A DNA stretch of 45,341 nucleotides from Comamonadaceae bacterium (lineage in GTDB: Bacteria > Pseudomonadota > Gammaproteobacteria > Burkholderiales > Burkholderiaceae_C), in assembly GCA_947453645.1 (NCBI GenBank), contig CANGHG010000001.1:1-45341 (forward strand), given 5' to 3'. A program made the translations under genes and the position numbers. Positions 3,022 through 17,216 of the stretch are shown here, piece by piece; positions within the stretch are counted from its first letter, which is position 1, and each line of letters begins with the position of its first letter. The notes below the pieces were generated by a model. It searched no databases. It was not told the origin of the DNA and saw nothing but the letters and a program-made list of their open reading frames with translations.

Positions 3022-4842
3022 TTATAGGAAGCCGATAGACACCCACGGCACAAAGGCAATCACCAACAGCGCCAGCAGCAGCGCGCCCAAATAAGGCCAG
3101 ATGCGACCCAGCGCCTGATCGGGGTCCACCTTGCCAATGGCGCAAGCCGCGTAAAAGCCCACACCCACAGGCGGCGCGAACAGCCCTAAGCCCATGGCGA
3201 ACACCACCACCATGGCGTAATGCACCTCGTGAATGCCCAAAGCGCGGGCCACGGGAAACAGCAAAGGGCCAAACAACACAATGGCCGGAATGCCCTCGAG
3301 CACACTGCCCAACACCACAAACACCAACAGGCTGACCACCATGAAACCCGTGGCACCGCCTGGCACCTGGGTCATGAGCGCCACCAAATCGCGTGAAAAG
3401 CCCGACTGTGTGAGCGCCCAGGCCATGGCCGTGGCGCAACCGATGATGAGCAAAATGGCCCCCGACAAGGCCGCGGTCTCGACCAACATCGGGGCCATGC
3501 GCCGCCAGTCCAGTTGGCGATAGACCACCAGACCCACCACCAAGGTGTACAAAATCCCGATGGTCGACACCTCGGTGGCTGTCGCCACGCCCTCCACCAC
3601 CGCCGAGCGAATGACAAAGGGCAGCGCCAACGCAGGCAAGGCCATGACCAAACTGCGCCACACCAGCTTGGCAGGGGCACGGACCACAGGCACTTCATCC
3701 GAGCCACGCGCCTGCCAAAACACCACGCCACACAGCGCCAGCAAACCCACCAAGGCTGGCAGCAAACCACCCACAAACAGCGCCGAAATGGACACGCCCG
3801 TGACCGCACCAATGGTGATCAACACCAAGCTGGGCGGGATGGTTTCGCTCATGGCACCCGAAGCGGCGAGCAGCGCCACCAAGCGCCCTGGATGGGCGCC
3901 TCGCTGCTTCATCTCAGGAAACAGGGCGGGTGCCACTGCTGCCATGTCGGCGGCTTTGGAGCCCGAGATGCCCGACACCAAGTACATGGCGGCCAACAGC
4001 ACGTATTGCAGACCACCGCGCAAGTGGCCAATGAGCGCGGCCAAAAAGTCCACCATGGCCTTGGCCAAACCGGTCACCGCGATGAAGGCCCCCAAGAACA
4101 CAAACAAGGGCACGGACAACAAGATGAGGTGGGACATGCCCTCGTCGATGCGACTGACCACGATGGTCAGCGGGGTGCTGGTGGAAAACAGCAAATACGA
4201 CACGGTGCTCAGGCCGAAGGCATAGGCGATGGGCAAACCCATGACCACGCACACACCCACCATGGCCACAAAAAACAGCAGCAAATTGCCATGACCCCAG
4301 TTGCTCAGGAAGGGTCGGGCCCACCACAACAGACCCACCAAGACCAGCAAAACCACCACAGCTGAGACCAGCTGGCGACCCGCGCCCAGCCGCCAGACTT
4401 GCAGCAAGGATTGCAAGAGCATGAGGCCCAAGCCCACCAACACAGCGGCCACGCGCAAGGCGTCGGGAATTTCCAATGCGGGGGTGAGGATGACCCATTG
4501 CTCGTCCATGTGCTCCCAAGCGGGCCACATCAAGACCGCGCAAAACACCACGGTGAGGCAGGCCACCAAGGCTTCTACAAACAAGCGTTTATCGGGCGAG
4601 AGTTTGGCGACAAACACCGTCAGGCGCATGTGCTCGCCGCGCTGCATGGCGACCACCGCGCCCAACATGGCCAGCCACAAGAACAACACCGAGGCCAATT
4701 CGTCCGACCAGGTGAGCGGGTCTTGCAAGACATAGCGACTGACCACACCCGCCGACAACACCGCGATTTCGGCCACCACCAAAAGCGCTGCCGGCCATTC
4801 GGCCAAGGCCCGCAAAAACCGCTCAGGGCCAGACAAGTTCAT
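3022..4842 (-). CDS. TRAP transporter permease, fused DctQ-DctM type
   Basis: Integral inner-membrane protein of a tripartite ATP-independent periplasmic (TRAP) uptake system, driven by the sodium or proton gradient. The 606 residues form a fusion. Residues about 1-155 are the small DctQ-like subunit (four hydrophobic helices, with the typical SRYVLQDPLTWSDELA segment). From about 160 onward comes the large DctM subunit, with many membrane helices and family segments such as GLPIAYAFGLS, SGISGSKAADMAAVAP and ETIPPSL. The start overlaps the stop of the binding-protein gene as ATGA (4839-4842). Its stop lies 12 bases before hisC, so his transcription may read through from here. The substrate cannot be told from the sequence; the family mostly carries organic acids. 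Confidence 0.93.
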   Translation of the reverse strand: MNLSGPERFLRALAEWPAALLVVAEIAVLSAGVVSRYVLQDPLTWSDELASVLFLWLAMLGAVVAMQRGEHMRLTVFVAKLSPDKRLFVEALVACLTVVFCAVLMWPAWEHMDEQWVILTPALEIPDALRVAAVLVGLGLMLLQSLLQVWRLGAGRQLVSAVVVLLVLVGLLWWARPFLSNWGHGNLLLFFVAMVGVCVVMGLPIAYAFGLSTVSYLLFSTSTPLTIVVSRIDEGMSHLILLSVPLFVFLGAFIAVTGLAKAMVDFLAALIGHLRGGLQYVLLAAMYLVSGISGSKAADMAAVAPALFPEMKQRGAHPGRLVALLAASGAMSETIPPSLVLITIGAVTGVSISALFVGGLLPALVGLLALCGVVFWQARGSDEVPVVRAPAKLVWRSLVMALPALALPFVIRSAVVEGVATATEVSTIGILYTLVVGLVVYRQLDWRRMAPMLVETAALSGAILLIIGCATAMAWALTQSGFSRDLVALMTQVPGGATGFMVVSLLVFVVLGSVLEGIPAIVLFGPLLFPVARALGIHEVHYAMVVVFAMGLGLFAPPVGVGFYAACAIGKVDPDQALGRIWPYLGALLLALLVIAFVPWVSIGFL

Positions 4843-5858
4843 GCCAATTTGCCGGTGTATTTCTCAAGCTTGCCGATGGCTTCGGGGCCGTATTTGGTTT
4901 TCCATTCTTGGTAGAAACCAGCCTTGGACAGCACCTCTCTGAAAGGCTTGATGTCGGGGTAATTGAACACCATGCCCTTGGCCTTGAGCTGGGCTTCCAA
5001 GCCATTGTTCAAGCGGCGAATGTCTTCGCGTTGGGCCAAAGCGGCTTTGTTGAAATGCTTGCTGATCAGGGCCTGCACCTCGGGCGGCAGCGACTGCCAG
5101 CGCTTGCCATTGGCCAGCACCCACTGGCCGTCCCACATGTGCGAGGTCATGGAACAGTACTTTTGCACCTCGTAGAGCTTGGCCGACTCAATGAGGGGCA
5201 AGGGGTTTTCTTGGCCCTCCACAATTTTGGTTTGCAAAGAGGAATACACCTCGCTGAAATTGATGGATGCAGGCGACGCGCCCAGGGCCTTGAACATCGA
5301 GGTCCACAAGGGGCTGACCGGCACGCGGATTTTGAAACCCTGCAAATCGGCGGGTGTTTGAATCGGCTTGGTGGAGCTGGTGATGTTGCGAAAACCGTTG
5401 TCAAAGGCCAAGTCGAAGGTGTGCAAATTCACCTTGGCAATGGCCCCACGCACATGGGCGCCTAGCTCGCCGTCCATGGCTGCCCAGACCGTGGGGTAGT
5501 CCTTGAACACAAAGGCCAGACCGTTGATGCCCGCCACCGGCACCAGGGTTTGCAAAATCAGGCCAGACAACATGAAGTAGTCGATGGCACCAGAGCGCAC
5601 CTGCGACAGCATGTCGGTGTCACCGCCCAATTGATTGTTGGGAAACAGCTGAATCTCGACCCGCCCCTTGGACTCGGCCTGGATGGCCTCGGCCGCCTCT
5701 TTCATGCGGATGTTGGTCGGGTGGGTGGCTGGGAAATTGTTGGCGAGCTTGAGCTTGAACTCGGCTGATTGGGCTTGGCTGTGGCTGGCCAACAGGGGCC
5801 AGGCGCAGGCACCTGCTGCGGCTTGCAACAACAGGCGGCGGTTGGTGTGGGAGGTCAT
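4839..5858 (-). CDS. TRAP transporter DctP-type periplasmic substrate-binding protein
   Basis: Periplasmic binding component of the TRAP system encoded by the next gene. The 339 residues begin with an export signal (MTSHTNRRLLLQAAAG then a hydrophobic stretch ending SHSQAQ); the paired arginines make Tat export possible but not certain. The mature part shows DctP hallmarks: LANNFPATHP, a GRVEIQLFPNNQLG segment, the FKIRVP strand whose arginine normally pairs with a substrate carboxylate, and a QENPLPLIES segment equivalent to the usual Q-[ED]-NP motif. The substrate is therefore probably a carboxylate, identity unknown. A cupin-like gene lies 16 bases upstream in the same direction and is probably part of the operon. 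Confidence 0.93.
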   Translation of the reverse strand: MTSHTNRRLLLQAAAGACAWPLLASHSQAQSAEFKLKLANNFPATHPTNIRMKEAAEAIQAESKGRVEIQLFPNNQLGGDTDMLSQVRSGAIDYFMLSGLILQTLVPVAGINGLAFVFKDYPTVWAAMDGELGAHVRGAIAKVNLHTFDLAFDNGFRNITSSTKPIQTPADLQGFKIRVPVSPLWTSMFKALGASPASINFSEVYSSLQTKIVEGQENPLPLIESAKLYEVQKYCSMTSHMWDGQWVLANGKRWQSLPPEVQALISKHFNKAALAQREDIRRLNNGLEAQLKAKGMVFNYPDIKPFREVLSKAGFYQEWKTKYGPEAIGKLEKYTGKLA

Positions 5859-6422: not shown

Positions 6423-8273
6423 TTGAACAACAGCAAAGTGGTGCGCATAGGCGGGGCCTCTGGCTTTTGGGGCGACAGCTCGGTAGGTGCGCCGCAATTG
6501 GTCCACAGCGGGCAGATCGACTACCTGGTGTTCGACTACTTGGCCGAAACCACCATGGCCATCTTGGCCGCACAGCGGCGCCGCTCGCCCGAGTTGGGCT
6601 ACGCCACCGACTTTGTGGACATCGCCATGCAGCAGGTGCTGCCCGAGGTGATGCGACAAGGCATCAAGGTGGTGAGCAATGCGGGCGGCATCAACCCACA
6701 AGCCTGCGCCAATGCACTGCAAGCCTTGGCCACCGCGCAGGGATTGCAGCCGCGCATCGCCGTGGTCGAAGGTGACGATGTGTCGGCCATGCTGGCGCAG
6801 TTGCAAGCGGCCCATACCCGAGACATGTTCAGCGGCGACGCCTTGCCAGCCAAGTGGCTCAGCGCCAACGCTTATCTGGGCGCCGCAGCCATTGCCCGGG
6901 CCTTGGACGACGGGGCGGACATCGTCATCACCGGGCGCTGCGTGGACAGTGCGGTCACCTTGGGGCCGCTGATGCATGAATTCGGCTGGACAGCGAACGA
7001 CCATCAACAGCTGGCAGGTGGCAGCTTGGCGGGCCACATCATCGAATGCGGTTGCCAGGCCACAGGCGGCTTGCACACCGATTGGCAGGACGTGCCGGAC
7101 TGGGACCAGATCGGCTACCCCATCGTGCACTGCCATGCCGACGGCAGCTTCGAGGTGGGCAAACCCCCAGGCACTGGCGGCAAGCTGTTGCGTGCTGCCG
7201 TGGCCGAGCAACTGCTGTATGAAATAGGCGACCCCGGCGCATACGCCCTGCCCGATGTGCTGTGTGACTTTCGTCAGGTGCTCATCACCCCACTCAACGA
7301 CGACTGGGTGCGGGTAGAAGGGGCGATTGGGCGAGCGCCGTCGACGCAATACAAGGTGTCGGCGACCGCCATGCAAGGCTATCGCTGCACCGGCAGCATG
7401 GTGATCATCGGCATCGACGCCGCGGCCAAAGCGCAGCGCACCGGTGAAGCCATTCTGAAACGCTGCCGTCACCTGCTGGCCCAAGCGGGTCACGCCGACT
7501 TCAGCGCCGCCAGCATCAATTTGTTTGGCGCTGAAACCTTGTACGGCCCACATGCCCGCACCTCGGCCTCGAGGGAGGTGATGGTGCGGGTGGTGGTGGA
7601 CCACCCCAGCAAAGAAGTCTTGGAGATATTTGCCCGGGAAATTGCACCGTCTGGCACCTCCTGGTCGCCGGGCACCACAGGCCCTGGCGGGGGCAGGCCT
7701 GCGGTGTCGCCGCTCATCAAGCCCTTGTCGTTCTTGCTGGACAAGTCGCTGGTGGAGATGAGTTACAGCCTCGATGGCAAGCGGGTGGTGGTGCCTGCTT
7801 CAATCCCCCTTGACCCTGCACCGGCAGTGCCAGCGCCGCAGGTGCCGCCCTGGCAAGAGACTGCAGAACCGCAGTTGCAAGTGCGCTTGCTTGACCTGGC
7901 CTGGGCCCGCAGTGGCGACAAGGGCAATCTGTCCAACATCGGCGTGGTGGCGCGCCGCCCCGAATGGCTGCCGCTCATTTGGGCGCGGCTCACGCCCGAG
8001 GTGGTGAACGCTTATTTCCAACATCTGGTGCACGGGCCGGTGGAGCGCTTTCACCTGCCGGGCATTGCCGCGATCAACTACCTGCTGCACCAGGCTTTGG
8101 ATGGCGGCGGACCTGGGTCCAGTCGCATCGACCCGCTGGGCAAGGGCATGGGCCAAATGCTGCTCGACATCCCCCTGATGGTGCCGCAGTCGGTGGCGCT
8201 TCAAGCCGTCGGTTGGCCCGCCGACCTGACCGAGGTCAGCGCCCAGTCCACACCGGTGGGCGCTTCTCGTTGA
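6423..8273 (+). CDS. atuA: AtuA-family protein (DUF1446), acyclic terpene utilisation
   Basis: Member of the AtuA/DUF1446 family, required for growth on citronellol and geraniol in pseudomonads, although its exact reaction is unsettled. The 616 residues read VVRIGGASGFWGDSS at the N-terminus, then DYLVFDYLAETTMAIL, VVSNAGGINPQACA and a glycine-rich PGTTGPGGGRPAVSPL segment. A second C-terminal domain begins near residue 485 (LLDLAWARSGDKGNLSNIGV) and matches the AtuA-like ferredoxin-fold domain; here both are in one chain. The start is a TTG, set by AAGGAG six bases upstream. The gene faces the minus-strand atu genes and its last 38 bases overlap the end of atuE. A divergent, single-gene arrangement of atuA differs from the atuABCDEFGH operon of Pseudomonas. 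Confidence 0.9.
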   Translation: MNNSKVVRIGGASGFWGDSSVGAPQLVHSGQIDYLVFDYLAETTMAILAAQRRRSPELGYATDFVDIAMQQVLPEVMRQGIKVVSNAGGINPQACANALQALATAQGLQPRIAVVEGDDVSAMLAQLQAAHTRDMFSGDALPAKWLSANAYLGAAAIARALDDGADIVITGRCVDSAVTLGPLMHEFGWTANDHQQLAGGSLAGHIIECGCQATGGLHTDWQDVPDWDQIGYPIVHCHADGSFEVGKPPGTGGKLLRAAVAEQLLYEIGDPGAYALPDVLCDFRQVLITPLNDDWVRVEGAIGRAPSTQYKVSATAMQGYRCTGSMVIIGIDAAAKAQRTGEAILKRCRHLLAQAGHADFSAASINLFGAETLYGPHARTSASREVMVRVVVDHPSKEVLEIFAREIAPSGTSWSPGTTGPGGGRPAVSPLIKPLSFLLDKSLVEMSYSLDGKRVVVPASIPLDPAPAVPAPQVPPWQETAEPQLQVRLLDLAWARSGDKGNLSNIGVVARRPEWLPLIWARLTPEVVNAYFQHLVHGPVERFHLPGIAAINYLLHQALDGGGPGSSRIDPLGKGMGQMLLDIPLMVPQSVALQAVGWPADLTEVSAQSTPVGASR

Positions 8274-9009
8274 ACGCCGCCAAGCCTTCCTTGGCGTCCT
8301 CGGTTTGCGCCACCAAGGCAATTTGGCCTTCGGTGAAGGCGATGGCTTGGTCGAAATCCATGGACTCGATGGCCCGCAAGGCGTATTGGCCACGGCGAAT
8401 GGCGCTGGGCGACTTGTTCACCAAACGCGCGATCAACCAATCGGTTTTGGCGTCCAGTTCGGCAGCCGGCACCACATGGTTGACCAAGCCTGCACGCAGC
8501 GCCTCCTCGGCGGTGAAGGGCTCGCCCGTGAGCGACCACTCTCGCACCAAGCGCGGTGCTACCTGTCGTTGAAGCAAACTCATGACCTGCATGGGGAACA
8601 CACCCACCTTGACTTCGGGCAGGCCGAACACCGCTTGGTCTGAGGCCACGGCCAAGTCGGTCATGCACAACAGGCCCATGCCCCCCGCCATGCACACGCC
8701 ATTGACCCGTGCGATGGACGGCAGCGTGGCCTGGTGCGCTTGGCGCAGCATGTCGGCATAAGGCACTTGGGGCTGGGCGTGGTCGAACACAAAACCTTTG
8801 TCGGGCTGCAAATCACCGCCCGCGCAAAACGCCTTGTCGCCAGCGCCGGTGAGCACGATGACGCGCACATCGGGGTGGGCATGGGCTTGGGCGTAGCCCT
8901 GGCGTATGCCTTGCACCACCTCGGCATTGATCGCATTGCGCTTATCGGCGCGGTTGATCGTGATCCAAAACGCCGCGCCCCGCACTTCCAGCAACACCGC
9001 ATCGCTCAT
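8236..9009 (-). CDS. atuE: Enoyl-CoA hydratase/isomerase family protein, probable isohexenylglutaconyl-CoA hydratase (AtuE-like)
   Basis: Crotonase-fold protein of 257 residues, ending the carboxylase operon. The oxyanion-hole segments are FCAGGD (about 61-66) and VNGVCMAGGMG (102-112). Of the two acid residues used by classical hydratases, the second is present (E132 in GLPEVKVG), but the first position is glycine (G112). In the atu pathway the enzyme after the carboxylase hydrates isohexenylglutaconyl-CoA; position after atuF supports this, while sequence alone only shows crotonase family. The start ATG overlaps the stop of atuF as ATGA (9006-9009). The 3' end overlaps convergent atuA by 38 bases. 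A generic enoyl-CoA hydratase is the alternative. Confidence 0.8.
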   Translation of the reverse strand: MSDAVLLEVRGAAFWITINRADKRNAINAEVVQGIRQGYAQAHAHPDVRVIVLTGAGDKAFCAGGDLQPDKGFVFDHAQPQVPYADMLRQAHQATLPSIARVNGVCMAGGMGLLCMTDLAVASDQAVFGLPEVKVGVFPMQVMSLLQRQVAPRLVREWSLTGEPFTAEEALRAGLVNHVVPAAELDAKTDWLIARLVNKSPSAIRRGQYALRAIESMDFDQAIAFTEGQIALVAQTEDAKEGLAAFNEKRPPVWTGR

Positions 9010-10988
9010 GACGCCACCTCTGTTGGGTCGATTTCAATTTCCAACACCACCCGACTGGCAGGCACTTGCTCGCCCACCGCCACACTCAGGGTTTTGACAC
9101 GCCCAGTGGCCGGTGCCAGGTGCAAATGCTCCATTTTCATGGCTTCGAGGGTGAGCAAGGTTTGGCCTTGTTGCACCTGATCGCCCACGGCCACCATGAC
9201 CGCCACCACCCGCCCATTCATGGACGCACGCACTTGACCGTCGCTGCTGCCTTGGTGTTGCCGCTGGCTGGCGGCACGGGTCAGGTCGGTGAAGCTCCAG
9301 GCCTGGCCCATGGCATGCAGCCACAGCTGGTCGCCGTCACGCACCCAAGTGGCTGAAGATTGCACACCGTTGCAGTCAAAGCGCGCTTGGGCGGCTTGCA
9401 AGTCCAACAAATTCAAGCTGAGTTGCTCGCCTGGTGCAAGCACTTGGTAATGCCGCTGGCCCAGGTGCTGCAAAGACAGGCTGTGCGTGTGCCCGCCCAA
9501 GCTCAGCCGCACAGAAATGGGTAATCGGTGCTGCCAGCGGCGCTGGTCGGCTTGCCAGTGCACGCCCTCGGCGGTTTCAAGCATCAGCACCGCCGCCAAG
9601 GCCAAGGCCTGTTGCTGCAAATCGGGTGAGGGAAGCAGCAAGTCGGCGCTGTGCTGGTCAATGAAGGCCGTGGTCGCCTCACCCGCCGCAAACACCGGGT
9701 GCGCCAAACACGCACTCAAAAAAGCCTGGTTGCTGGTGACGCCCAAGACCACCGTGTCTTGCAAGCCCTGGAACAACTGGCGTCTGGCCTGCTCGCGGCT
9801 CTCGCCGTGGCTGATGAACTTGGCCATCATGGCGTCGTAATAGGGCGGAATGTCTGCACCTGAGGCCAAGGCGTGTTCCACCCGCACATGCGCAGGCACC
9901 GCCCAATGCCGCAGGCGGCCGCTTTGCGGCATGAAGCCCTGCTCGGCATCCTCGGCACACAAGCGCACCTCGATGGCGTGGCCCTGGAACTGCACATCTG
10001 CTTGTTGCAAAGCCAACGGCTCGCCTGCTGCGATACGCAGTTGCAGCGCCACCAAATCCAAGCCGGTGATGGCCTCGGTGACCGGGTGCTCCACCTGCAA
10101 GCGGGTGTTCATTTCCATGAAGAAAAACTGGCCATGGGCGTCCAGCAAAAACTCCAAGGTGCCCGCACCCTCATAGCCCATGGCTTTCGCCGCCGAGAGG
10201 GCCACCGCGCCCATGCGCTCGCGCAAAGCCGGGTCCACGGCTGGCGAAGGCGCTTCCTCGATCAGCTTTTGATGGCGCCGCTGCACCGAGCAATCGCGCT
10301 CGCCCAAGTGAATCGCGTGGCCGTGCCTGTCAGCCAGGATTTGAATTTCTATGTGGCGCGGTTCCTTCACCGCTTTTTCCAAAATCACGGTGGCGTCGCC
10401 AAACGCGTTTTGCGCCTCCGACTGAGCGCTTTGCAGCAATTCGGCAAAAGCCTCGGCGCTGTGCACCAAGCGCATGCCACGCCCGCCACCGCCCGCTGTG
10501 GCTTTGATCATCACGGGGTAACCGATGGCATGGGCCGCGCGCTGCAAACCTGCGGCACTTTGGTCCTCGCCTTGGTAGCCCGGGATGCAGGGCACGCCTG
10601 CGTTCATCATGAGTTGCTTGGCGCCCGCCTTGTTTCCCATGTGCAAAATGGCTTGGGGCGACGGCCCGATGAAGACCAATCCCGCGTCCGCACAAGCTTG
10701 GGCGAACTGGGCGTTTTCGGCCAAAAAGCCATAGCCAGGGTGCACCGCATCGGCGCCGGTGCGACGGGCTGCGTCCAAGATGGCGGCGATGTTCAAGTAG
10801 GACTGCGCGGGCAAGGCCTCGCCGATGCACACCGCTTGATCGGCCTCGCGCACATGGCGCGACTGGGCGTCGGCTGTGGAGTACACCGCCACGGTGCGCA
10901 GTCCCAGCGCCTTGGCGCTGCGCATCACGCGCAGGGCAATTTCGCCTCGGTTGGCGATCAGCACTTTGTGAAAAGGGGTGGCTGTCAT
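9006..10988 (-). CDS. atuF: Biotin-carboxylase/biotin-carrier subunit of an acyl-CoA carboxylase, probably geranyl-CoA carboxylase alpha (AtuF)
   Basis: Alpha subunit of a two-component biotin-dependent carboxylase. The 660 residues contain an N-terminal biotin carboxylase domain (KVLIANRGEIALRVMR at about 8-23; the ATP-grasp glycine loop KATAGGGGRGMR; MEMNTRLQVEHPVTE), a linker/BT region, and a C-terminal biotinyl domain with EAMKME, the biotinylated lysine being K618. It carboxylates the gamma position of 3-methyl-branched enoyl-CoAs together with AtuC. Neighbours atuC and atuD upstream and an AtuA gene nearby favour geranyl-CoA over methylcrotonyl-CoA carboxylase; there is no HMG-CoA lyase gene, which a leucine (liu) cluster would normally have. 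Both ends overlap neighbours by four bases, implying translational coupling. Confidence 0.88.
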   Translation of the reverse strand: MTATPFHKVLIANRGEIALRVMRSAKALGLRTVAVYSTADAQSRHVREADQAVCIGEALPAQSYLNIAAILDAARRTGADAVHPGYGFLAENAQFAQACADAGLVFIGPSPQAILHMGNKAGAKQLMMNAGVPCIPGYQGEDQSAAGLQRAAHAIGYPVMIKATAGGGGRGMRLVHSAEAFAELLQSAQSEAQNAFGDATVILEKAVKEPRHIEIQILADRHGHAIHLGERDCSVQRRHQKLIEEAPSPAVDPALRERMGAVALSAAKAMGYEGAGTLEFLLDAHGQFFFMEMNTRLQVEHPVTEAITGLDLVALQLRIAAGEPLALQQADVQFQGHAIEVRLCAEDAEQGFMPQSGRLRHWAVPAHVRVEHALASGADIPPYYDAMMAKFISHGESREQARRQLFQGLQDTVVLGVTSNQAFLSACLAHPVFAAGEATTAFIDQHSADLLLPSPDLQQQALALAAVLMLETAEGVHWQADQRRWQHRLPISVRLSLGGHTHSLSLQHLGQRHYQVLAPGEQLSLNLLDLQAAQARFDCNGVQSSATWVRDGDQLWLHAMGQAWSFTDLTRAASQRQHQGSSDGQVRASMNGRVVAVMVAVGDQVQQGQTLLTLEAMKMEHLHLAPATGRVKTLSVAVGEQVPASRVVLEIEIDPTEVAS

Positions 10989-12133
10989 CGCGGCAAGATC
11001 CCCATGCTTTTGCTCAAAATTTGCAGCATCACCTCGTCCGCACCGCCACCAATCGAGGTGAGCCGCCCGTCTCGGTAAATGCGGGAGATGGGGCTTTCAT
11101 CGACAAAGCCCATGCCGCCCCAAAACTGCAAACAGCCATCGGCAATGGTGCGCATCAAACGCCCCGCTTTGAGCTTGGCCACGGTGGCCAAATAGGTGGC
11201 GTCGCCGCCGTCCACGATCTGCTCGATGGCCTGCCAACAAACCGCCCGCAAACATTCCAGCTCGGCTTGGTATTCGGCGAGTTTGTAATGCACGCTTTGG
11301 TTGTCCAGAATCGATCGGCCAAAGGCCTGACGCTCCCGGGTGTAGGCGATGGTGGTGTCAATGGCCCGCTGCGCCATGCCCACGTTGTTCATGGCTCCCC
11401 ACAGGCGCTCAATTTGAAACTGCTCCATTTGGTAGATGAAGCCCATGCCCTCCTCGCCCACGAGGTAACGCTGTGGCACCCGCACGTTGTCGAAATGCAG
11501 TTGCGCCGTGTCCGAGGCATGCATGCCCATTTTTTTCAAAGGCTTGGACGCTGTGACGCCTGGCGTGTTCATGGGCACGATGATGAGCGACTTGTTGCGG
11601 TGCGGTGCGCCCTCGGAGGTGTTGGCCAGCAGGCAGCAAAAATCGGCTTGGGTGCCGTTGGTGGTCCACATCTTGCCGCCGTTGATCACGTAGTCGGCGC
11701 CGTCTTTTCGGGCGCTGGTTTTGATGGACGCCACGTCCGAGCCGCTGCCCACCTCGGACACGCCCAAACACGCCACCATGTCGCCTTGGATGGCGGGCGT
11801 TAAAAACTCGGCCCGCAACTCGGCACTGCCATGCTCAGCCAGGGCGGGCGTGGCCATGTCGGTTTGCACCCCAATGGCCATGGGCACGCCGCCGCAATGC
11901 ACATGACCCAGCGCCTCGGCCAGCACCGCGCCAAAGGAGTAGTCCAGCGCGAGGCCGCCGTTGTCCACGGGCTTGCACAAACCCAGCCAGCCCATGTTGC
12001 CCATTTGCTTGAACACCTGGTGCGCCGGGAAGATGCCCGCCGCCTCCCAATCGTCCACATGGGGGTTGATCTGTTCGTCAATCCAACGCTTGACCGAGCG
12101 TTGGAGTTCATGGTGTTCGTGGCTGAGTTTCAT
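10985..12133 (-). CDS. atuD: Acyl-CoA dehydrogenase, probable citronellyl-CoA dehydrogenase (AtuD)
   Basis: FAD-dependent acyl-CoA dehydrogenase of 382 residues that would introduce the alpha-beta double bond before carboxylation. Family segments: CLGVSEVGSGSDVASI (flavin/substrate loop), MWTTNGTQADF, HASDTAQLHFDNVRVP, the flavin-binding LQFWGGMGFVDESPISRIYRDGRL, and IGGGADEV where medium-chain enzymes have the catalytic YEG glutamate. Its lack there resembles the isovaleryl/long-chain group, which uses a glutamate elsewhere in the chain. The frame is open to 12190, but that would run into atuC; ATG at 12133 gives MKLSHEHHEL and overlaps the atuC stop as ATGA (12130-12133). The place between atuC and atuF supports the citronellyl/geranyl-chain role. 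Confidence 0.86.
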   Translation of the reverse strand: MKLSHEHHELQRSVKRWIDEQINPHVDDWEAAGIFPAHQVFKQMGNMGWLGLCKPVDNGGLALDYSFGAVLAEALGHVHCGGVPMAIGVQTDMATPALAEHGSAELRAEFLTPAIQGDMVACLGVSEVGSGSDVASIKTSARKDGADYVINGGKMWTTNGTQADFCCLLANTSEGAPHRNKSLIIVPMNTPGVTASKPLKKMGMHASDTAQLHFDNVRVPQRYLVGEEGMGFIYQMEQFQIERLWGAMNNVGMAQRAIDTTIAYTRERQAFGRSILDNQSVHYKLAEYQAELECLRAVCWQAIEQIVDGGDATYLATVAKLKAGRLMRTIADGCLQFWGGMGFVDESPISRIYRDGRLTSIGGGADEVMLQILSKSMGILPR

Positions 12134-13746
12134 GGGCGGGCGACTGAAAATTGCATGGGCTGAGGTTGGCGTGCATCTGCTTGGCGGCACACCGCCAACA
12201 CCAAGGCCAGCACGCTGCGGGTGTCACGCGGGTCGATCACACCATCGTCCAACACATGGGCGCTGGTGGTGAAGACGCTCATTTGGCTGTCAAAGCGCTC
12301 GATGATGCGCTGCTGCAAATCGTCCAAGGCCGCTTGGTCCACCGCCCCTTTGCGCTTCATGGCGGCCTCGGTGACGATGGCCATGGTCTTGGCGGCTTGC
12401 TCGCCGCCCATGACCGCGGTTTTGGCATTGGGCCAGCTGAAACAAAACCTCGGCTGAAAGCCGCGCCCGCACATGCCGTAGTTGCCCGCGCCAAAGGACG
12501 CGCCGCAGTAGATGGTGATTTGCGGCACGGTGGCATTGGTCACGGCCTGAATCATCTTGGAGCCGTGTTTGATGATGCCGCCCTCCTCGAAGGCCTTGCC
12601 CACCATGAAGCCGGTGGTGTTGTTCAAGTACACAATGGGCGTGCGGCTTTGGCAACAAGCTTGGATGAAATGCGCCGCTTTGCTGGCCCCCGCCACGTCA
12701 ATCGGGCCGTTGTTGGTGACGATGCCCAGTGGCCAGCCTTCCAGCTTGATATGGCCACACACCGTGGCGCTGCCGTAGTTGGCTCCGAATTCCAGGAAGT
12801 CGGAATCGTCGGCGAGACGAGCGATGACCTCTTTCATGTCCACTGGGCGTTTGTGGTCCATGGGCATGATGCCCAGCAGGTCCTCGGCGTCATGGCGCGG
12901 CGCTTTGTAGGCGCGTGGCGTGTCTTGGGCCACGCGGTCCCAGTCGATATGGGCCATGATCTCTCGGGCCATGCGGATGGCGTCGCGGTCGTCCTCGGCC
13001 AGGTAGTCCCCCAGGCCTGAGATGCTGGTGTGCATGACCGCGCCGCCCAACTCTTCCTCGGTGGCCACCTCGCCCGTGGCGGCCATCAGCAAGGGCGGCC
13101 CTGCCAAAAAAGCCCGCGAGCGGTCGCGCACCATGATGATGTAGTCGGACAAACCCGTTTGGTAAGCACCGCCCGCGGTGGACGAGCCATGCGTGACCGT
13201 GACCACCGGCAAGCCAGCGGCCGACATGCGGGCGATGTTGCGAAACAAACTGCCGCCGCGCACAAAGTCTTCCACCCGGTAGGTCATGAGGTTGGCCCCC
13301 GCGCTTTCCACCAACTGGATGAAAGGCAGCTTGTTCTCCAAGGCCAGTTCTTGGATGCGCAACTGCTTGTCCAAGCCCATGGGTTGCAGCGCACCCGCGT
13401 CAATGCCCGAGTCGGAGACATTCACCATGCAACGCACACCGCTGACCACGCCAATGCCCGCCACCACACCGCCACCAGGCACGCTTTTGGCCAGGTCTTT
13501 TTGGTCCAAGCCCAAACCCGCCAAGGTGGACAACTCCAAAAACGATGTGCCAGGGTCCAGCAGCAGTGCCAGTCGTTCTCGCGGCAAGAGCTGTTGGCGT
13601 TTGGCAAACCGCTCGCCTGAAGCCGCTGACTTGAGCACCGTGCGTTGCTCGTACTCGCGCACTTGGGCCAGCAGTTTCAACATGCCGTCACGGTTGGCCT
13701 GGAATGCATCGCTGCCTGGAAAAACTTGGGGTTCGAGATGGGCCAT
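12130..13746 (-). CDS. atuC: Carboxyltransferase subunit of an acyl-CoA carboxylase, probably geranyl-CoA carboxylase beta (AtuC)
   Basis: Beta (carboxyltransferase) subunit, 538 residues from ATG at 13746 (MAHLEPQVFPGSDAF). Two crotonase-like halves are visible. The N half has GVVAGIGVVSG, PFIQLVESAGANL and HGSSTAGGAYQTGLSDY; the C half has VTNNGPIDVAGASKAAHFIQ, NNTTGFMVGKAFEEGGIIKHG and CGASFGAGNYGMCGR. The STAGGAYQTGLSDY version, rather than CTAGGAYVPAMSDE of methylcrotonyl-CoA carboxylases as I remember them, points to the geranyl-CoA type; a structural alignment would settle it. An open upstream extension to 14004 overlaps the DUF2156 gene and is rejected. It is followed by atuD (ATGA overlap) and preceded by the DUF2156 gene with 26 bases between them. 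Confidence 0.88.
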   Translation of the reverse strand: MAHLEPQVFPGSDAFQANRDGMLKLLAQVREYEQRTVLKSAASGERFAKRQQLLPRERLALLLDPGTSFLELSTLAGLGLDQKDLAKSVPGGGVVAGIGVVSGVRCMVNVSDSGIDAGALQPMGLDKQLRIQELALENKLPFIQLVESAGANLMTYRVEDFVRGGSLFRNIARMSAAGLPVVTVTHGSSTAGGAYQTGLSDYIIMVRDRSRAFLAGPPLLMAATGEVATEEELGGAVMHTSISGLGDYLAEDDRDAIRMAREIMAHIDWDRVAQDTPRAYKAPRHDAEDLLGIMPMDHKRPVDMKEVIARLADDSDFLEFGANYGSATVCGHIKLEGWPLGIVTNNGPIDVAGASKAAHFIQACCQSRTPIVYLNNTTGFMVGKAFEEGGIIKHGSKMIQAVTNATVPQITIYCGASFGAGNYGMCGRGFQPRFCFSWPNAKTAVMGGEQAAKTMAIVTEAAMKRKGAVDQAALDDLQQRIIERFDSQMSVFTTSAHVLDDGVIDPRDTRSVLALVLAVCRQADARQPQPMQFSVARP

Positions 13747-13772: not shown

Positions 13773-14678
13773 TTAAACGGCTGCGGGCGAAGTGTCTTGC
13801 GCCTCTTGGCTGAACCGCAAACGGTATTTCGAGAGCAAATGCGTGGGTTGGTAAGACAACTTGGTTTGCCGCAAATTGGCCAATCCCAAGTCTTGCTCGA
13901 AATTGAGCCAATTCAGGCTGGGCGTGGCTTGGCAGACATGCTGGAACATGTATTGGTAAATGCCCGTCAAATGGTCCATGCCTTTGGCAAAGCGCATCAC
14001 CCAAACATCGGGGGCCAGGCTTTCCGCCAGCACAAAGCCCGCAGGCTCGCCATCAGCCGTGAAGAAAAAACCCTGCAAACCCAGCTGGTCTGCCATGCGC
14101 AGCGCCTCCAAGCAGGGTCGCTCGTCGGCCTCGCCTGCGGCCTTGCCTTTGGCCCGCATCCAATTGGCCAACACGGCATCTGCCCCCTCGATGCAAGCCG
14201 CGCTGTAGGGCTGCACGGTCAGCTCATGGGCAGACAACAGTTGTCGCACCAAGTTGCGTTTTTTCTGCAACACGCTGCCTTGGTAATGCCTGAACTGATC
14301 GGCGCTGTAGACATAGTCCGCATCATCTCGATTGGCATGCCCATCAAACTGTTCGGGCTTCAAATCAGCCACTTGCGCTTGGGCCAAAGGGAACAACACC
14401 GCCTCGGGCAGGGCCAAGTTGGTTCGCAAGGCTTGCAACATCGGCAGTGACACATGGCGCACATCGAAAAGTGGCAGCAAGTAGGCCTCGCCGTCATAGC
14501 TCACACCGACCAAGCAAGGATAGGCACCTGGGGCATAGCGGTATTGGTGCGCATCCCTGAACAAATAAAAATTGGCGAAGCTGTAATCCGACAACGCCTG
14601 TGCGCCCTCACCCCGCTTGAATGACCCCAAGGCCTGTTCAATCTCGGCTTGGTGCTTCAAGGACAACGGTTCCATCAT
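13773..14678 (-). CDS. DUF2156 (phosphatidylglycerol lysyltransferase C-terminal-like) protein
   Basis: Protein of 301 residues resembling the DUF2156 family, whose fold consists of paired GNAT-like acyltransferase domains. Supporting segments are LSDYSFANFYLFRD near the N-terminus, the basic KKRNLVRQL stretch, GLQGFFFTADGEPAGFVLAES in the second half, and LNWLNFEQDLGLANLRQTKLSYQP near the end. No membrane helices are seen, so this is the stand-alone soluble form, not a full MprF-like lysyltransferase. It lies 9 bases after the TIGR03084 gene and 26 before atuC, on the same strand, so it is probably transcribed with the atu-like genes. The acyl donor and acceptor are unknown. Confidence 0.75.
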   Translation of the reverse strand: MMEPLSLKHQAEIEQALGSFKRGEGAQALSDYSFANFYLFRDAHQYRYAPGAYPCLVGVSYDGEAYLLPLFDVRHVSLPMLQALRTNLALPEAVLFPLAQAQVADLKPEQFDGHANRDDADYVYSADQFRHYQGSVLQKKRNLVRQLLSAHELTVQPYSAACIEGADAVLANWMRAKGKAAGEADERPCLEALRMADQLGLQGFFFTADGEPAGFVLAESLAPDVWVMRFAKGMDHLTGIYQYMFQHVCQATPSLNWLNFEQDLGLANLRQTKLSYQPTHLLSKYRLRFSQEAQDTSPAAV

Positions 14679-14687
14679 GAGGACGAC

Positions 14688-15479
14688 TCAGACCCGCACA
14701 CCCGCCATGGGACCGTCTGCAGGGGGTCCGGCAAAGCACTGGGCAATCAACAGCCAGTCTTGCACACCCTCGCCTTGGTAGCGCAACGCCGTGTCGTTCA
14801 AGTGCCTGCGCTGGGTGACCAGCAAGGCAAAGTCTTGAGCACTGCCTTGCACCACATGCGTCTGTGACTCGGGGTTCCAGGTCCAGGTGTTGCCATCAGG
14901 TGCGGTCAACACCACATGGGGCAGCACCTCGGGCACAGGCCGTTGACGGTTGACAAAGGTCCACTTGAAGGTGGTCACCCCCAGATGGGCAATGTGTTTC
15001 AAACGCGAACTGGCAGGTCGAGGCCGTTTCATCAAATCCCAAATGTCTTGGCCGTGCGCCCATGTTTCCATCAAGCGCGCTGAAGCGAATGAGCGCGCAC
15101 TCATGGGCGGCCCGTACCACGGCAGGCGGTCTTTCACATCCAGCGTCGACAGCGCTGTCACCAAAGCCTGGTGCAATTCCCGCCAATGGCTCAACAGCGC
15201 GGTGCCATCCAGGTGGGCAAAACGCTCGCGGGCGATGGCGCTGATCTGCTCACCCGCATACAGACGCTTGGCAAGCGGCAGTGCGGCTTGGTTGAAGGCA
15301 TCAGCTTGGGTGGCGGCTTGCAAACCCGTTTCGTCAAAGTAGCAAAGGTGGGCGATTTCATCCCAAGGCGTCCAGTTGTGAAACTGGGTGCGCTGTTGCC
15401 ATTGGTCAGCTGTGAGCTCTTCGCACAAAGCAGCCAGTGATTGGTATTCGGCCAACAGGTCTTGGCAAATGCTGTGCAT
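14688..15479 (-). CDS. TIGR03084-type DinB-fold metal-binding protein
   Basis: Protein of 263 residues with an N-terminal DinB/maleylpyruvate-isomerase-like four-helix domain. The probable metal triad is His44 (DEIAHL), Glu138 and His142 (METWAHGQDIW), which matches the spacing of the mycothiol-dependent maleylpyruvate isomerase family. A C-terminal beta-rich extension follows (HIAHLGVTTFKWTF, then VVLTAPDGNTWTWNP), as in TIGR03084. As I recall, this family was defined in actinobacteria and often sits near AtuA/DUF1446 and acyl-CoA genes; here it lies between an acyl-CoA dehydrogenase and the atuC operon. AAGGAG six bases before the ATG is strong and lies within the end of the preceding gene. 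No function has been assigned, and the mycothiol role is unlikely in a proteobacterium. Confidence 0.75.
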   Translation of the reverse strand: MHSICQDLLAEYQSLAALCEELTADQWQQRTQFHNWTPWDEIAHLCYFDETGLQAATQADAFNQAALPLAKRLYAGEQISAIARERFAHLDGTALLSHWRELHQALVTALSTLDVKDRLPWYGPPMSARSFASARLMETWAHGQDIWDLMKRPRPASSRLKHIAHLGVTTFKWTFVNRQRPVPEVLPHVVLTAPDGNTWTWNPESQTHVVQGSAQDFALLVTQRRHLNDTALRYQGEGVQDWLLIAQCFAGPPADGPMAGVRV

Positions 15480-15480
15480 C

Positions 15481-16656
15481 TCACACTCCTTGCTGACGGG
15501 CAGCCAAGTCTTTCAGTATTTCTTCAGAACCGCCGCCAATCATCATCACCTTGACCTCACGGTAAATGCGTTCGCTGCGGGTGCCACGCATATAGCCCAT
15601 GCCGCCCAAAATTTGCAGCGCTTGATCGGCGCAAAACTGCAGCGCTTGCGTGGCCAAGACCTTGGCCATGGCAATGCGCGCCACCAAGGCAGAGGGGTCG
15701 CCCAGTTGGTGTTGAATGCGGTAGGCGAGTTCGTGCACATGGCTACGTGCTGCGTCAATGCGCAGTTGCATGTCCATGAGTTTGTGGCGCACCACCTGCC
15801 GCTCGGACAAGGGCAGGCCAAAGGTGCTGCGTTGTCTGGCCCAGTCCAGCGCCTCTTGCAAACACACTTGCGCATGGCCATAAGCTACAGCGGCCATGAA
15901 CAAACGCTCGGCGTTGAAATTACTCATGATGGTTTTAAAGCCATGGTGCTCCTCGCCCACCAAATTGGCCACAGGCACTCGGCAGTTGTCAAACCGCAGG
16001 TGCGCCGTGTCCGAGCACCACCAACCCATTTTTTTCAAGGCGGTGCGGGTCAGGCCCGGTGTGTCGCCGTCGATCACCAAGACCGAAATGCCTTTGGACC
16101 CTTTGGACTGCGGGTCGGTGCGCACCGCCGTGGTGATGAAATGGGCCCGCATGCCTGAGGTGATGAAGGTCTTTTCGCCATTCACGATGTAATGGTCGCC
16201 ATCGCGCACCGCCGTGGTTTTCAAAGCGGCCACGTCCGACCCCCCTGTGGGTTCGGTGACCGCGAGTGCGGGAATCTTGTCACCACGCAACACCGGGGGA
16301 ATGACCCGCTGTTTGAGCGCTTCAGAGCCGGCCATCAACAAGGGCGGCAAGGCGATGGTGTGCGAGTTGAGCGCGGCTTGCATGCCGCCACTGCCGCAAC
16401 GCGCGTATTCCTCGGCCAAGATGATGTTGTAGAACACATCGGCAGGTGTGCCGCCATAGGCCTCGGGGTAACCCAAGCCAGTCACGCCCAAGTCGGCCAC
16501 TTGTTTGTAGAGCGACAAGGGGAAGGTTTCGGCCTCGTCCCATGCGTTCACATGAGGGGTGATGTCACGTGCAATGAACTGGCGCAGCGTGTCTCGGAAC
16601 TGTTCGTGTTCTGGCGTGAAGTAATGCGCGAGAGGTGGGAGATTGAAGAAGTCCAT
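15481..16656 (-). CDS. Acyl-CoA dehydrogenase
   Basis: FAD-dependent acyl-CoA dehydrogenase of 391 residues. Segments in order: LGVTGLGYPEAYGG, LAVTEPTGGSDVAALKT, EKTFITSGMRAHFI, WWCSDTAHLRFDNCRVP, FNAERLFMAAVAYGHAQ, and the C-terminal ADQALQILGGMGYMRGTRSERIYREV followed by IGGGSEEIL. As in AtuD, the YEG glutamate position is replaced (IGGGSEE), consistent with the branched-chain/long-chain group. The stop codon is one base before the start of the TIGR03084 gene, and the lipocalin stop lies eight bases upstream of this start, so it is embedded in the run. It could be a second dehydrogenase for later rounds of acyclic terpenoid breakdown; the substrate is not readable from sequence. Confidence 0.9.
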   Translation of the reverse strand: MDFFNLPPLAHYFTPEHEQFRDTLRQFIARDITPHVNAWDEAETFPLSLYKQVADLGVTGLGYPEAYGGTPADVFYNIILAEEYARCGSGGMQAALNSHTIALPPLLMAGSEALKQRVIPPVLRGDKIPALAVTEPTGGSDVAALKTTAVRDGDHYIVNGEKTFITSGMRAHFITTAVRTDPQSKGSKGISVLVIDGDTPGLTRTALKKMGWWCSDTAHLRFDNCRVPVANLVGEEHHGFKTIMSNFNAERLFMAAVAYGHAQVCLQEALDWARQRSTFGLPLSERQVVRHKLMDMQLRIDAARSHVHELAYRIQHQLGDPSALVARIAMAKVLATQALQFCADQALQILGGMGYMRGTRSERIYREVKVMMIGGGSEEILKDLAARQQGV

Positions 16657-16664
16657 GGGACATC

Positions 16665-17216
16665 CTACTGCAGCGTCATCTCGAGTTTGTCGGTGTTCAA
16701 ACCTTGGGCACGCAAGCGAATCAGCAAGGCTTCATAGGCCTTGGCGTCCACCTGCGGGGTGCGGGACAAGACCCACAGGTATTCGCGTTGGGGCTCGCTC
16801 ACCGCCGCCAGTTGGTAGTCGGCGTCCAGGTCAATCACCCAATAGTCCCCCCAGACAAAAGGCAGCAAGGACAACCACGAGGGCGCAAAACGCACTTGCA
16901 ATTTGGGCGAGTTGCTGGGGCCGATTTGCTTGGCCACACCCTCGGCGCTGTCGTCCAAGCCATCGGCCAAGCGACAACGGTTGAGCACCTTCACCTGGCC
17001 ATTGGCTTGGGGGCTGTACTCGGCCACGGTGTGGCTGATGCATTTTTTTTGAAACCAGTTGGGGAACTTGGCAATCTCGTACCAGCGCCCCATGTAGCGG
17101 GGCACATCCAGGTTGTCGATGGTTTTCAGGGGTGCATCTGCAGCCCAAGATGAGCCCATGACGCCACACAAGAGCAAGGCCAGAGCCCCCTGTTTGATAG
17201 CGATATTCAAGACCAT
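16665..17216 (-). CDS. blc: Blc-like bacterial lipocalin
   Basis: Outer-membrane or periplasmic lipocalin of about 183 residues. A hydrophobic N-terminal signal (IKQGALALLLCGVMG) ends near SSWAADAP. A cysteine lies inside the hydrophobic part, but signal peptidase I cleavage at SWA-A looks more natural than lipidation. The lipocalin G-x-W signature is MGRWYEIAKFPNWFQKKC, followed by VAEYSPQANGQVKVLNRC, the DYWVIDLDADYQLAAV strand and EYLWVLSRTP, all typical of Blc. ATG at 17216 starts one base after the stop of the dioxygenase gene; the in-frame start at 17231 would overlap it. Family members bind fatty acids or lysophospholipids; its place among acyl-CoA genes is suggestive only. Confidence 0.88.
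   Translation of the reverse strand: MVLNIAIKQGALALLLCGVMGSSWAADAPLKTIDNLDVPRYMGRWYEIAKFPNWFQKKCISHTVAEYSPQANGQVKVLNRCRLADGLDDSAEGVAKQIGPSNSPKLQVRFAPSWLSLLPFVWGDYWVIDLDADYQLAAVSEPQREYLWVLSRTPQVDAKAYEALLIRLRAQGLNTDKLEMTLQ

Follow-up and report, generated by a model that had tools for sequence, protein, structure and literature searches.

Members of the TIGR03084 protein family very probably have a role in a pathway of the AtuA/geranyl-CoA carboxylase type. The member studied here is encoded in the window, by which we mean the whole stretch of 45,341 nucleotides of Comamonadaceae DNA that was analyzed, together with AtuA, a biotin carboxylase, a carboxyltransferase, two acyl-CoA dehydrogenases and an enoyl-CoA hydratase. 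A previous reading of the bare sequence had placed the gene inside a terpene cluster, and this inventory agrees with that view in substance. The relevant features of the window are as follows:

3022..5858, minus strand: TRAP transporter, probable carboxylate uptake (DctQM 3022-4842, DctP 4839-5858)
6423..8273, plus strand: AtuA, long form with fused ferredoxin-like domain (Pfam 466 bits, cut-off 22.8)
8236..9009, minus strand: enoyl-CoA hydratase-family protein (best NCBIfam score 200.9, under that model's cut-off of 400)
9006..10988, minus strand: biotin carboxylase subunit with biotin carrier domain (NCBIfam, Pfam)
10985..12133, minus strand: acyl-CoA dehydrogenase ACAD1 (Pfam)
12130..13746, minus strand: carboxyltransferase of the geranyl-CoA carboxylase beta type (Gly at the Gly162 position, three-residue insertion of methylcrotonyl-CoA carboxylase absent)
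13773..14678, minus strand: stand-alone PF09924 protein with a tandem GNAT fold like the MprF C-terminal domain and FemX, 9 bases downstream of the TIGR03084 gene
14688..15479, minus strand: TIGR03084 protein, predicted MDMPI/DinB-type metalloenzyme of 263 amino acids (TIGR03084 and Pfam matches, conserved triad, structure model)
15481..16656, minus strand: acyl-CoA dehydrogenase ACAD2 (Pfam), one base upstream of the TIGR03084 gene
15486..15491, minus strand: ribosome site AAGGAG, six bases ahead of the TIGR03084 ATG
16665..17216, minus strand: lipocalin (Blc-type, Pfam Lipocalin_2), eight bases upstream of ACAD2

The TIGR03084 gene (14688-15479, minus strand) begins with ATG and encodes 263 amino acids with 0 internal stop codons. 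The stop codon TGA of the acyl-CoA dehydrogenase gene, a single base and this ATG follow one another directly, and AAGGAG lies six bases before the ATG; the one-base distance and the strong ribosome site claimed by the sequence-only reading are thus both confirmed. Its assignment of the protein to TIGR03084 is upheld by a full-length match to the NCBIfam model above the curated cut-off (287.6 bits versus 247.95, E 9.1e-86), in which residues 3-257 correspond to profile positions 2-253 of 253. Pfam MDMPI_N (75.4 bits, cut-off 24.2) and DinB_2 (30.8 bits, cut-off 24.8) match as well, while MDMPI_C stays at 22.4 bits, under its cut-off of 29.5. The host genome (assembly from an uncultured bacterium, 1.59 Mb, 69% complete) carries one copy of the gene. 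NCBIfam treats TIGR03084 as a hypothetical equivalog under the name 'family metal-binding protein' and gives no function, and an association with AtuA or a carboxylase is absent from the model name. A literature search for TIGR03084 by name found no paper, and a search that joined terpene with MDMPI/DinB terms returned no paper with both kinds of term among the matches listed.

An AlphaFold2 model of the TIGR03084 protein, computed from 22 input sequences, reached a mean pLDDT of 93.6. A Foldseek search with this model recovered two solved structures at E <=0.001, both of them mycothiol-dependent maleylpyruvate isomerase (MDMPI; 2nsf, 1.4e-5; 2nsg, 2.8e-5). VIA-align, which re-examined Foldseek's own matches, superimposed the model on MDMPI with a Z of 15.7 and an rmsd of 4.0 for 220 residues over model positions 1-247, at 11% identity, and MDMPI was the only solved chain among the matches listed that aligned across both domains. 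Single-domain DinB proteins tie with MDMPI in Z but cover only about positions 1-155 of the model; the N-terminal helical bundle is common to them (Z 10-15 over 130-150 residues), whereas the second domain is absent there. From about residue 157 on, the C-terminal part is weakly similar to SCP2 lipid-binding folds, with best Z values of 6.0-6.8 that fall below the 8 under which, as the tool warns, a match may be merely a common arrangement. Searches of solved structures with the protein sequence and with a profile of the alignment yielded no relative; the evidence for kinship with MDMPI comes from the Pfam and NCBIfam matches and from the structure model. The shared fold over both domains bears out the relationship to thiol-dependent isomerases that had been suggested before.

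The residues that had been singled out as an intact metal-binding triad, His44, Glu138 and His142, are present at these positions and invariant in all 60 aligned TIGR03084 members from both phyla, the window's protein included. W121 and R135 are likewise invariant (60/60), and D145 and R224 are each kept in 56 of the 60 sequences. Four rows were left out of this alignment: L019 (frameshifted), L024 (partial), L097 (duplicate of L022) and L008 (start unclear). The MDMPI of Corynebacterium glutamicum (2nsf, 2nsg) shares with the window's protein the two-domain fold, the His/Glu/His triad and an Asp and an Arg at likely interdomain positions. The two proteins differ, however, in that they are only 11-14% identical, and the window operon lacks the maleylpyruvate pathway and stands beside acyl-CoA carboxylase genes; no gentisate-pathway genes were found among the scanned window genes. 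In the passages of PMC8562490 concerned, Asp151 and Arg222 are named as the interdomain pair of MDMPI, and, judged from spacing and domain, D145 and R224 are their likely counterparts. In contrast to the His/Glu/His triad of TIGR03084, three histidines are reported as invariant in BstA-H in the relevant part of PMC5815605. Taken with the fold, we regard an MDMPI-type site for a putative metal in the TIGR03084 protein as highly probable.

On the minus strand, downstream of the lipocalin gene, the genes follow in the order ACAD2, TIGR03084, PF09924, carboxyltransferase, ACAD1, biotin carboxylase and hydratase. The gaps around the TIGR03084 and PF09924 genes measure 1, 9 and 26 bases, and at the last three junctions neighboring genes share four bases; this gene series therefore looks like one operon. 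The lipocalin is a possible carrier of a hydrophobic substrate, and the TRAP transporter beside AtuA probably takes up the carboxylate used in the pathway. A relative of its DctP, 87% identical, is also found near AtuA in L002. The gene set presumably resembles echA7-fadE12-accA2-accD2-fadE13-Rv0976c of M. tuberculosis. With the Pseudomonas atu operon, the window shares AtuA, a carboxylase of the geranyl-CoA carboxylase (GCC) type, an acyl-CoA dehydrogenase and a hydratase, but it adds the TIGR03084 and PF09924 proteins and a second acyl-CoA dehydrogenase, and its hydratase is not of the AtuE type: against the model for gamma-carboxygeranoyl-CoA hydratase (NF004227), it scored 143.2 bits and did not reach the cut-off of 426.

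The window's carboxyltransferase has geranyl-CoA carboxylase beta as its best solved relative (607.7 bits, versus 473.6 bits for methylcrotonyl-CoA carboxylase beta). According to PMC4673880, the geranyl enzyme differs from methylcrotonyl-CoA carboxylase beta by Gly162 in place of Phe and by the absence of a three-residue insertion; the window's protein bears both geranyl-type marks. So do 20 of the 21 linked proteobacterial carboxyltransferases, the misfit being the frameshifted L019, and 16 of the 20 linked actinobacterial ones, the other four having Ser or Ala with the insertion absent. Since Gly was also found in 12 of 12 actinobacterial AtuA clusters without a linked TIGR03084 gene, these marks suggest a bulky substrate for AtuA clusters as a whole and are not evidence specific to TIGR03084. 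In the carboxyltransferase tree, which comes with a long-branch warning, proteins from proteobacterial TIGR03084 clusters group with Pseudomonas GCC (support 100) and the actinobacterial ones fall elsewhere (99-100); the TIGR03084 tree is split by phylum (99). Two carboxyltransferase lineages would mean separate recruitment of TIGR03084, a conclusion for which we do not lean on the tree because of its long branches.

Co-occurrence of TIGR03084 with AtuA was pronounced in Actinomycetota. In an even sample of 246 genomes, TIGR03084 was present in 34, AtuA in 47 and both in 30, so that AtuA occurred in 30 of the 34 genomes with TIGR03084 versus 17 of the 212 without (Fisher p 2.9e-22; 1.3e-21 when the genome used as center was left out). 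The four TIGR03084 genomes without AtuA are G168, G213, G302 and G409. At the loci of such AtuA-less genomes (L076, L082, L083, L084), TIGR03084 lies near a large ORF that belongs to one cluster in all four; in L082, this ORF encodes a 2-oxoglutarate decarboxylase/dehydrogenase-type protein. In the window genome's own family, TIGR03084 exceeded the cut-off in 8 of 150 sampled genomes, a ninth match being a 32-bit fragment, and AtuA was found in all eight versus 72 of the other 142 (p 0.007; 0.015 without the window's genome). Genome-level presence of AtuA is a poor test in this family because, of 20 AtuA loci from its TIGR03084-negative genomes (L106-L125), 15 had the split form (approximately 460 amino acids plus a small ORF) without a carboxylase. 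The remaining five had the long, fused form, accompanied in three cases by a carboxyltransferase and a biotin carboxylase. By itself, the presence of AtuA is an unreliable indicator of terpene use. G087 counts against the proposed pathway role: it possesses TIGR03084, but its AtuA is solely of the split, carboxylase-free type (L155, L156). Divergent TIGR03084 proteins of the family genomes G011, G087 and G093 (L100, L101, L102), 36-42% identical to the window's, form a separate branch and are unlinked to a carboxylase. In the class-level sample of 229 genomes, TIGR03084 was present in two, that of the window and G472; the carboxyltransferase near TIGR03084 in G472 is MCC-type, and the 20 kb examined at that locus yielded no AtuA.

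Physical linkage points in the same direction. In Actinomycetota, AtuA is no more than 10 kb away from 19 of 35 TIGR03084 genes, and in nine of these cases at most 108 bases separate the matches; the order in many of these genomes is TIGR03084, AtuA, carboxylase. We considered whether large genomes with many acyl-CoA genes might produce such linkage incidentally; against this speaks that, among the matches listed and with genome sizes pooled, 0 of 57 sub-cut-off MDMPI-type paralogues from AtuA-bearing genomes were located within 10 kb of AtuA. Two further loci (L086, L090) have carboxylase genes near TIGR03084 and no AtuA in the examined stretch. The other 14 of the 35 genes have neither AtuA nor a carboxylase nearby: nine belong to genomes with an AtuA-carboxylase cluster elsewhere (L141-L144, L146, L147, L150-L152), one is a second copy in G349, a genome in which the first is linked, and the remaining four come from AtuA-less genomes. 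Some neighbors of these unlinked genes lie in GC-rich loci and have no gene calls, and a Pfam scan of 10 neighboring ORFs left 5 without any family. Conversely, at least four actinobacterial AtuA-carboxylase clusters (L126, L127, L129, L140) are found in genomes without TIGR03084 over the cut-off.

In proteobacteria, the linked order is dehydrogenase, TIGR03084, PF09924, carboxylase. Among 21 named loci (L002-L021, L023), the PF09924 gene adjoins TIGR03084 in 21, a carboxyltransferase is near in 18 and AtuA in 11, counts that are affected by the many flanks cut by contig ends (L004 and L017, for instance, stop there). A true exception is L007 (10001-11698), in which a TIGR03084 and PF09924 pair is present with no carboxylase or AtuA across 10 kb on each side. 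In L019, the record of Polaromonas sp. P2-4, the whole cluster is frameshifted, which reflects decay or poor sequence. The sequence-only reading had stated that a lack of co-occurrence with AtuA or acyl-CoA carboxylase genes would speak against its proposal; co-occurrence and linkage were found in two phyla, and the proposal withstood this test.

MDMPI from C. glutamicum uses mycothiol, whereas MshC was not detected in the window's host, the assembly of which is 69% complete. MshC did not exceed its cut-off in any of 24 genome entries (22 proteobacterial, one genome being present twice as G044/G159, and two Acidimicrobiaceae) and did so in 1 of 14 control genomes; weaker matches, probably to cysteinyl-tRNA synthetase, occurred in all 24 entries and all 14 controls. 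The earlier expectation that a proteobacterium should lack mycothiol is in line with the 22 proteobacterial entries, none of which has MshC over the cut-off. Glutathione synthase exceeded its cut-off in 21 of 21 proteobacterial entries (20 genomes). Should the TIGR03084 enzyme depend on a thiol, glutathione suggests itself as the candidate in proteobacteria.

The sequence-only reading had named an isomerase, a hydrolase and a thiol-transfer step with no preference among them; we rank an isomerase first, an S-transferase second and a hydrolase third. Our leading, yet tentative, proposal is that the TIGR03084 protein acts as an isomerase on an enoyl-CoA, with a putative metal, thiol, substrate and reaction. 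The N-terminal DinB helical bundle would hold a divalent metal via His44, Glu138 and His142, and the C-terminal domain may accommodate the lipid portion of the substrate. The pathway would take a beta-methyl-branched, isoprenoid-like acyl-CoA through dehydrogenation, carboxylation of the beta-methyl group, hydration and cleavage. The metal would polarize the thioester carbonyl and activate a small thiol, which might be glutathione in proteobacteria and mycothiol or another thiol in actinobacteria. Addition of the thiol to C3, rotation about the C2-C3 bond and departure of the thiol would then turn the trans enoyl-CoA into its cis isomer, the form that the carboxylase could bind. Such an isomer-exchange step would fit the anatomy of the system because the protein has an isomerase-like build and its gene lies one base from that of an acyl-CoA dehydrogenase with the carboxylase adjacent. 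Methylcrotonyl-CoA carries two methyl groups on C3 and would need no isomer exchange. It counts against an isomerase that, chemically, a thiol adds less readily to a beta,beta-disubstituted enoyl thioester than it does to maleylpyruvate.

In the published scheme, as given in the sections of PMC4097962 and PMC4847356 on this pathway, cis-geranyl-CoA is made, its methyl group carboxylated, water added and acetate cleaved off. AtuD is listed there as making cis-geranyl-CoA directly (PMC4097962/PMC4847356), so an isomerase would not always be needed; the atu genes of P. citronellolis and P. aeruginosa, as described in these sections, include no TIGR03084-like gene (PMC4097962, PMC4847356). The pathway can thus run without TIGR03084, since both the Pseudomonas scheme and the at least four actinobacterial clusters mentioned above have none. 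The geranyl-CoA employed in the carboxylase study contained about 25% of the cis form, and the trans isomer was judged, in the part of that paper concerned, unlikely to fit the enzyme (PMC4673880). In its full form, our proposal would see TIGR03084 as the cis/trans isomerase that has been missing from isoprenoid acyl-CoA breakdown and that, assisted by a metal and a thiol, feeds carboxylases of the geranyl-CoA type with cis beta-methyl-enoyl-CoA. Two distant carboxylase lineages, one in Pseudomonadota and one in Actinomycetota, would have recruited it, with glutathione replacing mycothiol in the former phylum; we consider this combination possible but rather doubtful.

Alternatively, the protein could be a protective thiol S-transferase that conjugates reactive products of the pathway, unsaturated aldehydes (e.g., citral) or enoyl-CoAs, with glutathione or mycothiol. 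All eight B. subtilis relatives assayed are, in the account given in PMC5815605, metal-dependent bacillithiol transferases, a 2011 paper cited in PMC8562490 refers in its title to glutathione S-transferases of the DinB superfamily, and glutathione synthase is present in 21 of 21 entries. The transferases, however, appear as the first of the single-domain DinB-superfamily matches, whereas the two-domain build of TIGR03084 is closest to MDMPI, and most loci couple the gene to core enzymes and not to dehydrogenases or efflux. We hold such a function to be conceivable, if somewhat unlikely. That the protein is a metal-dependent hydrolase or thioesterase whose substrate is an acyl-CoA intermediate or the product of AtuA cleavage appears improbable: we know of no DinB-type member with proven hydrolysis, and the MDMPI-like interdomain pair D145/R224 is kept, even though structure titles annotate DinB-fold proteins such as YfiT as probable metal-dependent hydrolases and TIGR03084 adjoins AtuA in many Actinomycetota. 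With the weak SCP2-like match of the C-terminal part and the existence of clusters without TIGR03084, one might picture an accessory binding or regulatory protein, an acyl-CoA or isoprenoid carrier that kept the fold and lost catalysis, but the invariance of the triad, W121 and R135 in 60 of 60 members is what one expects of an active site and makes this quite improbable.

The PF09924 neighbor is predicted to adopt a tandem GNAT fold (pLDDT 91.7) whose nearest relative is 2hqy, of unknown function (Z 28.7), followed by MprF C-terminal domains (Z approximately 14-15.5), FemX and aminoacyl-tRNA-dependent peptide synthases (Z approximately 12-13.6) and MshD (11-11.6). Of 150 family genomes, exactly five carry its gene, and each of these also has TIGR03084 (Fisher p 9.5e-8). 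Three family genomes have TIGR03084 and no PF09924 gene, and none was found beside TIGR03084 in 35 actinobacterial loci (phmmer, E 1e-5); the link belongs to the proteobacterial TIGR03084 form only. That PF09924 might make a thiol cofactor or conjugate in proteobacteria and that TIGR03084 acts with it on an aminoacyl- or thiol-bearing conjugate would suit the adjacency in 21 of 21 named loci, the confinement of PF09924 to TIGR03084 genomes and, after 2hqy, a fold nearest to aminoacyl-tRNA-dependent transferases with the mycothiol synthase MshD at Z 11, but the 35 actinobacterial loci and the three family genomes that do without it render this very unlikely.

TIGR03084 is a widespread family without an assigned function; through its association, in two phyla, with AtuA and a carboxylase of the geranyl-CoA type, it becomes a pathway enzyme open to testing. 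If the cis/trans isomerase proposal is true, it would account for the passage of terpenoid acids of trans geometry to a carboxylase regarded as cis-only, and the family would provide an MDMPI-type enzyme that works with a thiol other than mycothiol.
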